Origin: Glandiceps talaboti
Lineage: Eukaryota; Hemichordata; Enteropneusta; Spengelidae
Assembly: GCF_964340395.1 (NCBI RefSeq)
Contig: NC_135559.1
Location: forward strand, 3,125,001 to 3,189,000
Direction: 5' to 3'
DNA: 64,000 nucleotides
Positions 16,901 to 56,100 of this stretch are shown here, piece by piece. The stretch's first letter is position 1, and each line of letters opens with the position of its first letter. The position numbers and the translations under genes are program-made. The notes under the pieces are model-generated. The model saw only the letters and a list, made by a program, of their open reading frames with translations, made no database searches and had not been told where the DNA came from.

Positions 16901-19900
16901 CATCTGATGACAAACGAGCTGAGTACAAAATAGTATTGCATAGCTGTCAAATTAACTTGAATATTTTTAACACAGTGACCTACGTCAGAAGAAGCTTTCT
17001 GGTATGACGAAGCAGCTGGTTTTCTTTTTGGGCGCTGTCGTTTCTTTTTTGGTTCAGCAGCTGGTTTGGTTTCAGTTTGATTATTGACGGTATCATTGGT
17101 AGTCTTCTCTGCTTCCTGACTGGCAGCTGGAGGTGGTTCTTCCTCATCTGGTGGTATTGGTGGTGGTTCCAGGAAGTAGCTACTAGCCTTACGTTTTACA
17201 TGTGTATGATAAAGTAACAAACGATGCTGTTCTTCATACTTCAGTGGTTTGCGTTCAAGTTTTTGTGCACCAAACCATGCCCAAGACAGTGGTGCAGGAT
17301 TTTTGTGACCTTCTAGCATGTCCCATGGTATGACTTTCTGTTTTGAAGACACTTGTAAACCCTACACAAATATATAAAATTATAGAACAATGGTAGTTTT
17401 CATAAAGTACTGCCCAACTTTGCTAAAAGCTCATAACAGCACAACAGCTCTATGTACTTCCTCAACTTTCTGGGGAACATACAATCCATTGCAGCCATAT
17501 ATACGAGCTTGGATTAAGGCATTCACATTGCAACCTCTATCCTACCAGGTACCCAATTGTACAGCTGGGTTGATTGGGGTACAATCATGGTATGGTACAG
17601 TTAAAATCAGTTCATGCAGATATGTGAGTGAACATACACATGGATACATTTTTTTCCTTTAATTTTTAACTGTAACTGTTCAGCGCTTTTGAATATTTGT
17701 TTTAAAATAGAAAGGGCGCTATAGAAAATAAATAAATGTAAACGTAAATAGATGGATGGACACAGATGGAACTCAATATAATATAGTTGGGCAGTGCCTG
17801 TTGGGAACTAAAAAGATAGATAAACTTACTTGTTTTTTATCAATAGAGTCAAAACCTGCTATCTTGTTTCCCTTGGTATCAATAAGACTTCCCATTGGCT
17901 CACAAGTGATAGCTTCACAACTTTGTTTAGGTAAGGGTAACAATTGACGAACCTTATCAATACCATCAGAGTGTTTGTCACCTAACTCTTTCTGTAGGAT
18001 TGAATATATCGACTGTAAATAATTTTACAATTTGGAATTATTAAGACATGTTCATCATAGTATTTCAAATAAGTTACAATACGACATACAATATGACAAT
18101 TCTATTTTTAAACCTGCACTAGCTGCAACTGGGATTTTTTTTCATCAAAAAAAACAAAGCTATATTCACTAAAAATTGGTCAATTATTTATATAAAAAAT
18201 TGTATCTGTGAATTAGTGGTCAATGTTATCAGAAGGTAGTGTAGTGGTAAGTTTAAATCTTGAGTTAAGGCCTGGTTTTGAATCTGCCACCGTGTAAAAA
18301 CTGTACTGGTCAGTGTAACTGGAGTACCATTTTTTGATCAGACAACCACAACATATTCACTGAAAATTGTTAAAATACCAAGAATTAGACATTGTATGTG
18401 TTAATCAGTGGTCGATATTATCCATTAGTTGTACAGAAACAGGTTAAAATTGTGATCACCCTTGAGGGTGTTGATTTTTGGAAGTGGACGAAAATATGAA
18501 TTGATTTATCATGGATACAGCTACAAAAACTATGTTTACCCACAGGTGATGTAATACTACTCTGGGTGTACAGATATTACAAGTAAATTATTGTACCTAA
18601 CAAAACGAGTTAAAAACATCATTCCAGTTACAACTAGTGCAGTTCTAACATTTTAACACATGGTACATGAATAATACAATTTCCTCATTGTCAATGATAT
18701 TTGATGCATTCCAACCCTGTCAAATTACTAGAAGTCAGGGGTTAACAAATCATTTTGTGAACTGGTGGGTCCCCAGATCAGTGCCTTAAAAAATTCAGTG
18801 GTCCTGCTGAAAGAATTAGTGGTCCCAGGTCCCGCTAATGTGAAAAATTAAATTTAGCTATGAATCTGTATATTCAGACGACTTTTTAACACAGTTATTA
18901 ACAGTAAAGTACTGGTCCAACAGACCAGACAAGGTAAAATTTGTGTGGTCCTCCCCCAAAATTCACGAGTCTCGGACCCAGGACCAGTGGATTTGTTCAC
19001 CCCTGGAAGTGTATGTATTTTGGCACACAAACATTTTCTCAACAGAAAGACAATTTTTCACAATTTGGTTCTACTTCATTTTGTTGGTATACAGTGTATT
19101 TATGGCCATATCACTTTTGTAATTGTATTGATTTTTAAATCTGTTTTATGATTATTCAGAATTTATGATTGAAAGTGATTCAATTTTCCAATGATTCATT
19201 TTTGTGCAAGGATTGTTTCTGTTAAAAAAGATTTACAAAATTCAGAGCCAAAATGAGATTGTTTTTATAATATTGACTTTAGTGAAAATAAATTGAAGTT
19301 TTCTTAAATAAAGTAACAAGTATATGATTAAGAGGGTTTATTTCTGAGGCACATTCTTGATGTGAAATCAAAGAAGTAATACGGTGAACTCCATACTTGC
19401 CTTTAATTTTTTGATGAGATTCTGATGTTGTCTTTTGTTTTCTTCACCAGGACACTGACCAGCAGCCATATCACTTGCCATTGTACCATTTAATAACACA
19501 GACAACATGTCTAATACTGTAGTAAACAATTCACTGGCACATACACAAAAAAAGACAGAATAATTTTAAATTAATCCATTGCTTGGCTAGTTCAATATTA
19601 TTCCCAAATATTTTTCTTCATTCAGCCAAGGAAAATACAAGTGACCTAAGGGGCTTTGTCACTACGAGTAGCTCGACTTGATAATTATAATCGATTCTAT
19701 TGTTTACTTTCCTGCTAAAAATCAATGTGGTAACGTGTGTGTGTGTGTGTGTGTGTGTGTGTGTGTGTGTGTTTGTGTGTGTGTGTGTCATATCTCATGA
19801 AGGAAACACCAACGAAGGCATCTTCATTTTTCCTGTAGTTATCAACTGAAGTAGTAACAATGTATACATACCCACTTGTATGGATATCAACAGTACCCGT

Positions 19901-53162: not shown

Positions 53163-56100
53163 CTGTGAAATACAACAGTTAGCTAAATTAGCATGATGAA
53201 ATAAAGTTACTTTTGAAATAAGTAAAGACATTTGACACAGTCTAGCAGTGATTTGGTTTCATGAACAAGATTTTCTAAAAAGAAGAAGATTGAAAAGGGA
53301 AAATACTATGTATGTGAATTCAATATGACATGGAAACAGATGTTCCAATATTTTCAAACACTTGTAAATAAATCATATGTTGCCTATGTATACCATCTCA
53401 CCTAAAATTGGGAATTTTGGGTTCTTTTTGTGTGCAATGAACGAGACAGACAGACAGACAGACAGACAGACAGACAGACAGACAGACAGACAGACAGACA
53501 GACAGACAGACAGACAGACAGACAGACAGACAGACAGACAGACAGAAAGAAAGAAAGAAAGAAAGAAAGAAAGAAAGAAAGAAAGAAAGAAAGAAAGAAA
53601 GAAAGAAAGAATGACTCAGGTTTGTTAAACTCTCTTCATGTACTAACCAGAAATTTGACTCAATTTATTTTCATAAATCATATCAAAACCTCCTCCTCCA
53701 GACGCTAGGTAATTATTACATATCACTTTGTAGATTGCATCCTCGTCCAAGGGTACAAATTCTGGCACTTCACAATCTGTGCAGACAACGTCAGCTTTCA
53801 ATACACGTTGATAGGCTGGTTTATTTAAATCAAACACCACTCGGATACCTGCATCGAACGAGGAAATTACATATCACATTGAAGTATCACACACACACAC
53901 ACACGCACGCACACACAGACACGCACATGCATGTAAACACACACACACACACACACAGACACACACAAGCAAGCAAACAAACAAACAAACAGACAGACAG
54001 ACAGACAGACAGACAGACAGACAGACAGACAGACAGACAAGCAAAGTCGATAAGTAATCAATCAATCAATTGATCAATCAATTTGTCGATCGATCGGCCG
54101 ACCGACTGATCGATCTATTGTTGATCAATCATGATCGGTTGATTGGTCGTTTGCTTGATTGGTTGGTTGGTTGGTTGGTTGGTTGGTTGGTTGGTTGGCT
54201 GGTTGGTTGGTTGGATGTTGGTTAATAAATAGAACAAATGGTGAAGGAGGTTAATAATTGTTCATACTCTACCTGCCATTTGTAGGAATCTATTTTGTAA
54301 CGTTTCACCATCATATTCTGCCATGGAATATTCCAATGCCTCCATCAGATCAGTTCCTTTAAGTTCCAATAAATCTAATGTGTTCCCGTATGGCAGTGCA
54401 TTCATGACGTCACCAAGTGTGATATTTCCTGAAATGGAAAAGAAAAAGCCAAATCAGGAGAGCTAAAGTAAATTTGGAAAAAAATCTATATTTGAATTGA
54501 AAGATATTAAAAATTCCATATCAGAGATAAAGAAAACGATGAAAACAATAGATAGGTTTACGAACCGTACACAGAAAGTATTTTGGGTCAACCCCCGAGG
54601 GTCAACAATACAAATGACATATATATAACAACAAAATGCACCGACAGTGATCTATAATGCACCATACAACGCACGCTCGTCATTATCATCACGAAATTAT
54701 ACGTTACTGCGCATACATTCATAGAACGGAAGTGAGAGGTGGGGGAGGGAGACTTGCCTCTGTAAGTGAGAGGTGGGGGAGGGGGACTTGCCTCTGTAAG
54801 TGAGAGGTGGGGGAGGGGGACTTGCCTCTGTAAGTGAGAGGTGGGGGAGGGAGACTTGCCTCTGTAAGTGAGAGGTGGGGGAGGGAGACTTGCCTCTGTA
54901 AGTGAGAGGTGGGGGAGGGGGACTTGCCTCTGTAAGTGAGAGGTGGGGGAGGGAGACTTGCCTCTGTAAGTGAGAGGTGGGGGAGGGAGACTTGCCTCTG
55001 TAAGTGAGAGGTGGGGGAGCGGGACTTGCCTCTGTAAGTGAGAGGTGGGGGAGCGGACTTGCCTCTGTAAGTGAGAGGTGGGGGGAGCGGGACTTGCCTC
55101 TGTAAGTGAGAGGTGGGGGAGGGGGACTTGCCTCTGTAAGTGAGAGGTGGGGGAGGGGACTTGCCTCTGTAAGTGAGAGGTGGGGGAGGGGACTTGCCTC
55201 TGTAAGTGAGAGGTGGGGGAGGGGGACTTACCTCTGTAGATGGAGTCTCCAATGCTATCACTATTCCAGATTATCTTATTCACATCTGTCTGACCAAGTT
55301 TCTTATAATGATGCACTGCAGCATCTGTAATGAGGTTACCAAGGTTACATTCTCGTAAACGACATGTCGAAGCTGCACCGTCTAAGAACACCTGGCTTTC
55401 ACCTATGACCTCAGAAGTAGCTGTATCCAGGTGAGCTTTCCATTTAGCGACTTCTTCTAATGTGTCTGCGTCTGTCAAAACACATAATTCAATATGGTGG
55501 TGTAATTATGTTTTCGCTGATATAAAATCTTTTGAAATTTAATATAATTACTGTGATTGTTTATGAGGTATACCAGGCACCAATATGCAATTATTTTTTT
55601 TACACCGAGAAACACACCTCAGTGTCTGCATGTGATTTGCATACGATATTGCTCGCTTCTGATTGGTCCAACAGCATTTCATTATCATGCACATAACGAT
55701 GTTCTTGAAACAAGGTATAATACTATTATTCAGACTTTCAGGGTTTAAACAAGTCACGCTAGAAAGGAATTTTCAAGAAAAAATTTGGGCTGGTGTTGAA
55801 GAGATTGAAAGTACGGTTACCTTCCTGTACATCACTGTCTAAAATTATCGGATTACTCTCATCGTCCCAGTTTATCACTTTACCGTCGTCATCAAACGTT
55901 ACTTGAAAATAACCCAAATATTTCCCATATCGATAAGCCGTTACCACGGGAACCTCCACTGATGCATCATGGGAAGATGTGACGACAGTGGGGTAAGGCC
56001 CTTCTATGGCTGCCTCGTCTTCGGGTGCTGGTGGAACCCCTGAGAAGTCGTATAGATAAATTTAAGTTGTTATGACACGAACAGCTAATATGGATAGAAT

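Follow-up and report, generated by a model that had tools for sequence, protein, structure and literature searches.

The window analysed here is a stretch of 64,000 nucleotides from the hemichordate Glandiceps talaboti (contig NC_135559.1, positions 3,125,001 to 3,189,000). It carries two neighbouring genes, MED12 and an NT5E-like (5′-nucleotidase) gene, whose introns contain tandem arrays. Seven of these arrays span the 5′ splice site, or donor. Exons were mapped by tblastn with approximate human MED12 and NT5E queries, and the junctions were placed by reading frame and splice scores. The identity of MED12 is supported by Pfam matches to Med12-LCEWAV (2e-32 and 1.5e-12). The two genes together have 37 introns with both ends placed. 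Labels such as M6, M11 and M27 denote MED12 introns, and the introns of the NT5E-like gene are numbered likewise.

Arrays at donors in MED12 and the NT5E-like gene

Arrays in the window were called by Tandem Repeats Finder (TRF) and by a lag scan screened for microsatellites. Seventeen arrays touch the 37 introns. The seven that span a donor are those of M6, M11, M20, M21, M27, M28 and NT5E intron 5, the last counted by its TRF end at 55238, as the lag scan shortened it. An array spanning the acceptor was found at 0 of the 37 introns in the window. A sequence-only reading of this DNA had placed tandem duplications at the same seven donors, at NT5E-like exon 5 and MED12 exons 7, 12, 21, 22, 28 and 29 (one higher than the MED12 numbering used here), and had seen none centred on an acceptor; both statements are confirmed. 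Its description of the units as unrelated between loci and 34 to 169 bp long also agrees with TRF and the lag scan.

In five arrays examined unit by unit, and also in M21, the first unit is the true end of the exon. Later units of the donor-spanning arrays repeat the exon tail, the donor and the start of the intron, and run on into the intron. The M27 array consists of 47 copies of agacttagtttg before the junction and GTAAGATA after it, and GTGAGAGA is present in 52 full units of the M11 array. Unit 1 of the NT5E intron 5 array reads GAG/GTAAGT (GT donor; the slash marks the junction), and 14 of the 14 later units read GAG/GCAAGT (GC donor). The weakest donor-spanning case is M28, with 28 identical bases 64 apart and an uncertain donor position.

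For the chance expectation, each array was collapsed to one unit and then placed at random. Between 1.45 and 1.77 donor-spanning arrays are expected under this null model against the seven observed, with a probability of seven or more of 2e-4 to 8e-4. The expected number of acceptor-spanning arrays is about 1.4 to 1.5 in the first two models, for which zero has a probability of about 0.2. The 7:0 split between donors and acceptors has a two-sided P of 0.016. As the window was selected on account of these arrays, the P values err on the optimistic side.

Four arrays (M3, M5, M16 and M26) begin 25–75 bp past donors. Decayed similarity of the M3 array reaches to 20 bp from the donor, and in M16 it brings the start to 9 bp. 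The M26 array derives from CTGT, and 38 bp past the donor of NT5E intron 7 lies an (AGAC)n microsatellite. Among the 17 arrays, those of M26 and NT5E intron 6 passed the microsatellite filter yet are microsatellite-like. Further arrays 20–80 bases past donors had been listed in the sequence-only reading; those of M3, M5, M26 and NT5E intron 7 are present, the last two being of microsatellite type, and M16 was missing from that list. The mapped features are collected in Table 1.

Table 1. Mapped genes and tandem arrays (window positions).
Feature	Position	Strand	Method	Description
NT5E-like intron 5 array	54730..55238	minus	TRF	34-bp unit x15, spans donor (last exon base 55232)
M3 array	47764..48580	minus	TRF, lag scan	66/85-bp unit, starts 70 bp past donor (48650)
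M5 array	45703..46475	minus	TRF	51-bp unit x15, starts 74 bp past donor (46549)
M6 array	44777..44986	minus	TRF, lag scan	83-bp unit (50 bp exonic) x2.5, spans donor (44937)
M11 array	39120..41503	minus	TRF	45-bp unit (2 bp exonic) x53, spans donor (41502)
M16 duplication	34232..34375	minus	lag scan	85-bp tandem duplication, starts 9 bp past donor (34384)
M17 array	32951..33313	minus	TRF	degenerate, 30-bp unit
M20 array	29900..30593	minus	TRF	69-bp unit (64 bp exonic) x10, units 99% alike, spans donor (30530)
M21 array	28251..28688	minus	TRF	about 3 units (133/169 bp), spans donor (28607)
M27 array	20312..23376	minus	TRF	65-bp unit (12 bp exonic) x47, spans donor (23365)
M28 duplication	19835..19926	minus	lag scan	incipient, over donor (19872 or 19876)
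MED12 gene, mapped coding part	17023..51839	minus	tblastn	31 matched exons, 30 introns; 3′ end beyond mapped part
NT5E-like gene	52996..60083	minus	tblastn	8 matched exons

Other features of the window were also recorded. The top-scoring donor of MED12 intron 29, at 19401, is of the GC type (AAAG/GCAAGT). Beyond the mapped exons, positions 7808-9312 contain 35 copies of a 43-bp unit. Two equally scoring tRNA genes lie on the minus strand at 61719-61790 and 62666-62737; the stretch that separates them holds a tandem repeat of about 456 bp (61824-62685).

Recurrence across the genome

The whole 590 Mb genome was examined for words that occur three times at gaps of 20–50 bp. The donor word AGGTAAGT gave 2,884 raw triple hits from 28,973 copies, and its reversal TGAATGGA gave 1,016 from 36,815. 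For the acceptor word TTTTCAGG there were 52 raw triple hits per 30,375 copies, and for its reversal 159 per 17,108. A second acceptor word, TTTGCAGG, had 110 triple hits against 123 for its reversal, and the donor word CAGGTGAGT had 336 against 132. The permuted word GATAGAGT had 1,017 and its reversal TGAGATAG 1,451. Raw hits are weighted by array length, and those of GATAGAGT stem, among the matches listed, from a few very long arrays. Judged by raw hits, the donor word far exceeds the acceptor word, but an excess over any word cannot be read from them alone. As a measure of donor bias, raw hits per copy were dropped in favour of array counts, two control words scoring alike.

Arrays were counted by hand among the matches listed, over the stretch that each listing covers. 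Five arrays of AGGTAAGT occur in the first 5.05 Mb of contig 1. There are 11 of TGAATGGA in 34.8 Mb (seven of them TGGA microsatellites), three of GATAGAGT in about 103 Mb and, from a full list, 16 of TTTTCAGG in the whole genome. The density of the donor word is higher than that of TGAATGGA (one-sided P 0.043 with microsatellites, 0.0026 without), GATAGAGT (1e-5) and TTTTCAGG (8e-7). By extrapolation, some 330 arrays would account for the 2,884 hits at 8.75 hits per array (the mean without the longest), an estimate that drops if long arrays are common. Counted by locus on the plus strand of contig 1 (first 2.93 Mb), three or more copies were found at 4 of 52 AGGTAAGT loci versus 0 of 70 TTTTCAGG loci (P 0.03). 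A donor word marks a functional splice site more frequently than an acceptor word does, which explains part of the contrast between them.

Outside the window, 20 arrays were read at their edges (B1, L029-L032, L034 and L036-L049). In 11 of these (B1, L032, L034, L036, L037, L039, L041, L042, L046, L047 and L048) the 5′ edge falls within or directly behind an exon-like open frame, whose donor belongs to the unit or to a first copy that has diverged; the frames of L034, L036, L041 and L048 were judged by eye. Homology was found at six of the 11: LMF1 (3e-16), TRRAP (2e-14, covering all 48 residues up to the donor), TSP1 (2e-11), MAO (2e-9, 32 of 32 residues), copine (9e-7) and ELP1 (2e-6). Three repeat-rich bacterial chains rank above the ELP1 match, no single stretch of them passing alone. 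L039 matched plexin-A4 at an E value of only 0.19.

Sorted by word, and among the matches listed, the exon-edge arrays make up 2 of 5 for AGGTAAGT, 6 of 10 for CAGGTGAGT and 0 of 1 for CAGGTAAGTAT. The acceptor word TTTGCAGG has at least 17 arrays. Four were examined, three of them chosen for a donor-like stretch in the unit; those three are donor arrays, and the fourth, L038, showed no exon. Exons at the 3′ edge were sought in L039-L049 only, with one weak candidate, L046. The L040 array (595-821, on its own minus strand) has TTAG/G in unit 1 before a possible micro-exon of 29 nt, and TTGAGG in the next printed units; its donor core is without a variant. This array may include the acceptor of a micro-exon, differing between unit 1 and the later units.

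Sampled blocks amounting to 200 kb contain, by our own count, nine TRF arrays with a period of at least 25 and a score of at least 200. The flanks of six of the nine were inspected. The array of B1 starts at an exon-like donor, and that of B3 at 47484 is intronic and reaches no junction, as judged by eye. Ab initio exon finding in random blocks was abandoned since the codon contrast is too weak, at 0.225 bits per codon, and exon claims thus rest on homology or on open frames beside the arrays. The unrelated units, the involvement of several genes and the greater density of donor-word than acceptor-word arrays bear out the earlier proposal of a recurring process at one kind of site.

Tolerance, a possible duplication bias and a putative use of the copies

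The anatomy of the arrays, their recurrence in other genes, the excess of donor over acceptor and the homology of six affected exons outside the window were observed directly. The reading preferred here, with a probability of about 0.53, is that these arrays are minisatellites of the ‘mirage’ type, which is known from amphioxus, formed repeatedly at donors through tolerance of the copies combined with a bias in duplication. Small tandem duplications of about 20–170 bp would arise repeatedly over exon 3′ ends and their donors, and slippage or unequal exchange may then expand them into arrays whose copy number can exceed 100. The 5′-most copy would stay the real junction, as it is paired with the upstream acceptor by exon definition and is transcribed first. 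If this first donor is the one used, the remaining copies would become intron and be harmless. A duplicated acceptor would often alter the mRNA and so be purged. A duplication bias at donors would probably act on top of this tolerance.

Tolerance of extra donors explains the excess of donor over acceptor. It is less sure that donors also duplicate more often, which is indicated by the null model of the window and the array counts but not by the raw hits per copy. A duplication-prone junction and tolerance had been put forward in the sequence-only reading as alternatives; tolerance accounts for the donor-acceptor difference, a bias is only suggested, and the two are not exclusive. Read on the sense strand, 11 of 16 units show a positive GC skew, which makes no strong case for R-loops.

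Some arrays in the window speak against the sequence-only reading. The degenerate M17 array stops 10 bp before its acceptor (32941) and is a counter-example. The arrays in M18, M6 (a second one), M17 and NT5E introns 2, 3 and 6 begin 129 to 434 bp past donors; no hidden link to the donor was found for M18, the one of these so examined. Other observations weigh against the reading preferred here. Outside the window, no clear exon was found at nine of the 20 arrays (L029, L030, L031, L038, L040, L043, L044, L045 and L049). Convincing homology was absent for five of the 11 with an open frame, namely B1, L032, L034, L041 and L039, and the ELP1 score is under the Pfam cut-off. The longest donor word, CAGGTAAGTAT, has 11 hits, from one array only, versus 37 for its reversal. 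The first 5 Mb of contig 1 are over-represented for donor-word hits, and the true density of donor arrays is lower for this reason. The hits per copy of GATAGAGT and TGAGATAG, for which the copy numbers are rough guesses from a 249-kb sample, are about 0.09 and 0.10, compared with 0.10 for AGGTAAGT. Amphioxus mirages, as described in the available part of one report (PMC3087553), also occur at acceptors.

The equality of the two control words per copy lowers the odds of a duplication bias and raises those of tolerance. It is possible, if clearly less probable than the combined reading, that tolerance acts by itself. Duplications would then be equally frequent everywhere, those at donors surviving since the first donor wins and those at acceptors or in exons being purged. 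The 7:0 split in the window, the scarcity of acceptor-word arrays and the similarity of some control words to the donor word in raw hits per copy all fit this explanation. So do the unit lengths: 4 of 16 are a multiple of 3, and splicing from a later donor would in most cases alter the reading frame. However, the interior of an intron is tolerant as well, yet seven of 17 arrays span donors against 1.8 expected when acceptors are excluded. Donor-word arrays are also denser than those of three other words, among the matches listed.

The variation inside the units bears on whether the copies themselves have a use. The 20 bp around the donor of M27 are invariant in 47 of 47 units, whereas the other 45 columns carry 45 variants. 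In a rotation test, the donor window (+1 to +6) was rotated around the unit, and P was obtained for columns and for cells. The donor core is less variable than the rest of the unit across 13 arrays (P 0.005 and 0.004, respectively). The values are 0.03 and 0.02 for nine arrays found otherwise than by an intact donor word, although three of these nine were fetched for donor-like units. The five window arrays alone give 0.10 and 0.05, and a separate set of 10 arrays, each picked up through an intact donor word, gives 0.13 and 0.013. The quieter donor cores are a lead and partly post hoc, as the quietness was seen on M27 and M11 before testing.

These quiet cores would be expected if the copies are kept as U1 docking sites, which prevent premature polyadenylation or enhance transcription, with selection preserving each copy. 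The NT5E array, in which every later unit still has a GC-type donor, is also in keeping with this. Such use of the copies is nevertheless unlikely. Exchange with a constrained first unit could produce the same pattern without any use for the copies, and extra strong donors carry a risk of mis-splicing. A broader proposal is that donor sequences drive the amplification, through a transcription- or U1-dependent process that duplicates the DNA at bound donors and lets only intact-donor units go on multiplying, or that the copies are kept as U1 platforms; this, too, is unlikely.

An assembly artefact or chance is very improbable. The mitochondrial contig (C40; L050 and L051) contains COX1 three times at a spacing of 15,435 bp, most likely an assembly concatemer, which suggests that false tandem copies do occur in this assembly. 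However, the units of the arrays differ by point variants and alternate between unit types, the same anatomy recurs with different units in unrelated genes on several contigs, and TRF scores in the window reach 5815.

Host lineage and comparison with known systems

The mitochondrial contig also bears on the lineage of the host. COX1 has no AAA and five AAG codons, against a preference of 25 to 7 for codons ending in A in comparable pairs (P 5e-4). It also lacks AGA and AGG, and AUA occurs four times. In the best solved match the residues aligned with the four AUA codons are M, I, I and V, and for this reason AUA alone is not decisive. The gene order is COX2, tRNA-Lys and ATP8. The tRNA, read by eye, has the loop CUCUUAA with the anticodon CUU; ARAGORN in its bacterial setting reported no tRNA. 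According to the available part of a published comparison (PMC3121625, Table 3), AUA is Ile in Balanoglossus, AAA and AGG are missing and the loop is CU CUU AA. Cephalochordates are listed there with AUA as Met, AAA as Lys and the loop UUU, AGG being missing too, and echinoderms have the CUU loop in common but read AAA as Asn. The features seen here agree with the entry for Balanoglossus and differ from that for the cephalochordates, so that a Balanoglossus-like enteropneust is, on this evidence, the highly probable host. A query with a lancelet-derived fluorescent protein gave no match in the genome, in a search without a positive control.

The closest known system is that of the amphioxus ‘mirages’, reported for Adh3, the globin genes BflGb6 and BflGb9, PGBD5 and troponin C (PMC3087553, PMC3902484, each available in part). 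These are minisatellite-like tandem duplications of exon-intron boundaries, both 5′ and 3′, with units of 10–160 bp, and from the same partial text it appears that they do not disturb splicing (PMC3087553). The intragenic minisatellites of amphioxus that the sequence-only reading mentioned are thus real and, as far as this text goes, have the boundary arrangement. Common to both systems are tandem units over an exon-intron boundary, the involvement of several genes, and splice signals that recur in many of the units, though not in every one. The unit lengths are about 10–160 bp in mirages and 22–169 bp here, where the unit is different at every locus printed. In the text available, mirages are described gene by gene in cephalochordates and at both boundaries; the present arrays are from a hemichordate, at many loci, and lie at donors, with none proved at an acceptor and a possible micro-exon acceptor in L040.

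A tandem duplication with splice signals inside a gene is also the basis of the Rogers model, in which introns are gained by the duplication of segments containing AG/GT (cited in PMC3087553; PMC4974935; both available in part). One duplication gives a new intron in that model, as outlined there, whereas many copies lie within an existing intron here and no new exon was shown.

The arrays are relevant to how introns grow and to how new ones are gained through duplication. They are natural tests of how the spliceosome chooses the first among dozens of identical donors. They also raise the testable question of whether mutation is concentrated at the splice donor or duplications are only tolerated there. 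If donors do drive the amplification, splice-donor recognition would be a source of structural mutation common to hemichordates and lancelets.

Recursive splice sites consist of an acceptor joined to a donor. The L049 array (667-1256, on its own minus strand; 45-bp unit x13, 99% alike) resembles them, as it repeats TTTTACAG directly followed by GTAAGTAT, an acceptor fused to a donor. The window arrays are unlike recursive sites in having an exon tail, and not a polypyrimidine-AG, before the donor. No hemichordate report and no genome-wide count was recognised in a literature search that most subscription papers fell outside. What was described as a curiosity of a few amphioxus genes is now seen at many loci, and at a single kind of site, in a second deuterostome phylum. 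The kind of array is already known from amphioxus; what is new to us is the phylum, the scale and the bias towards donors.

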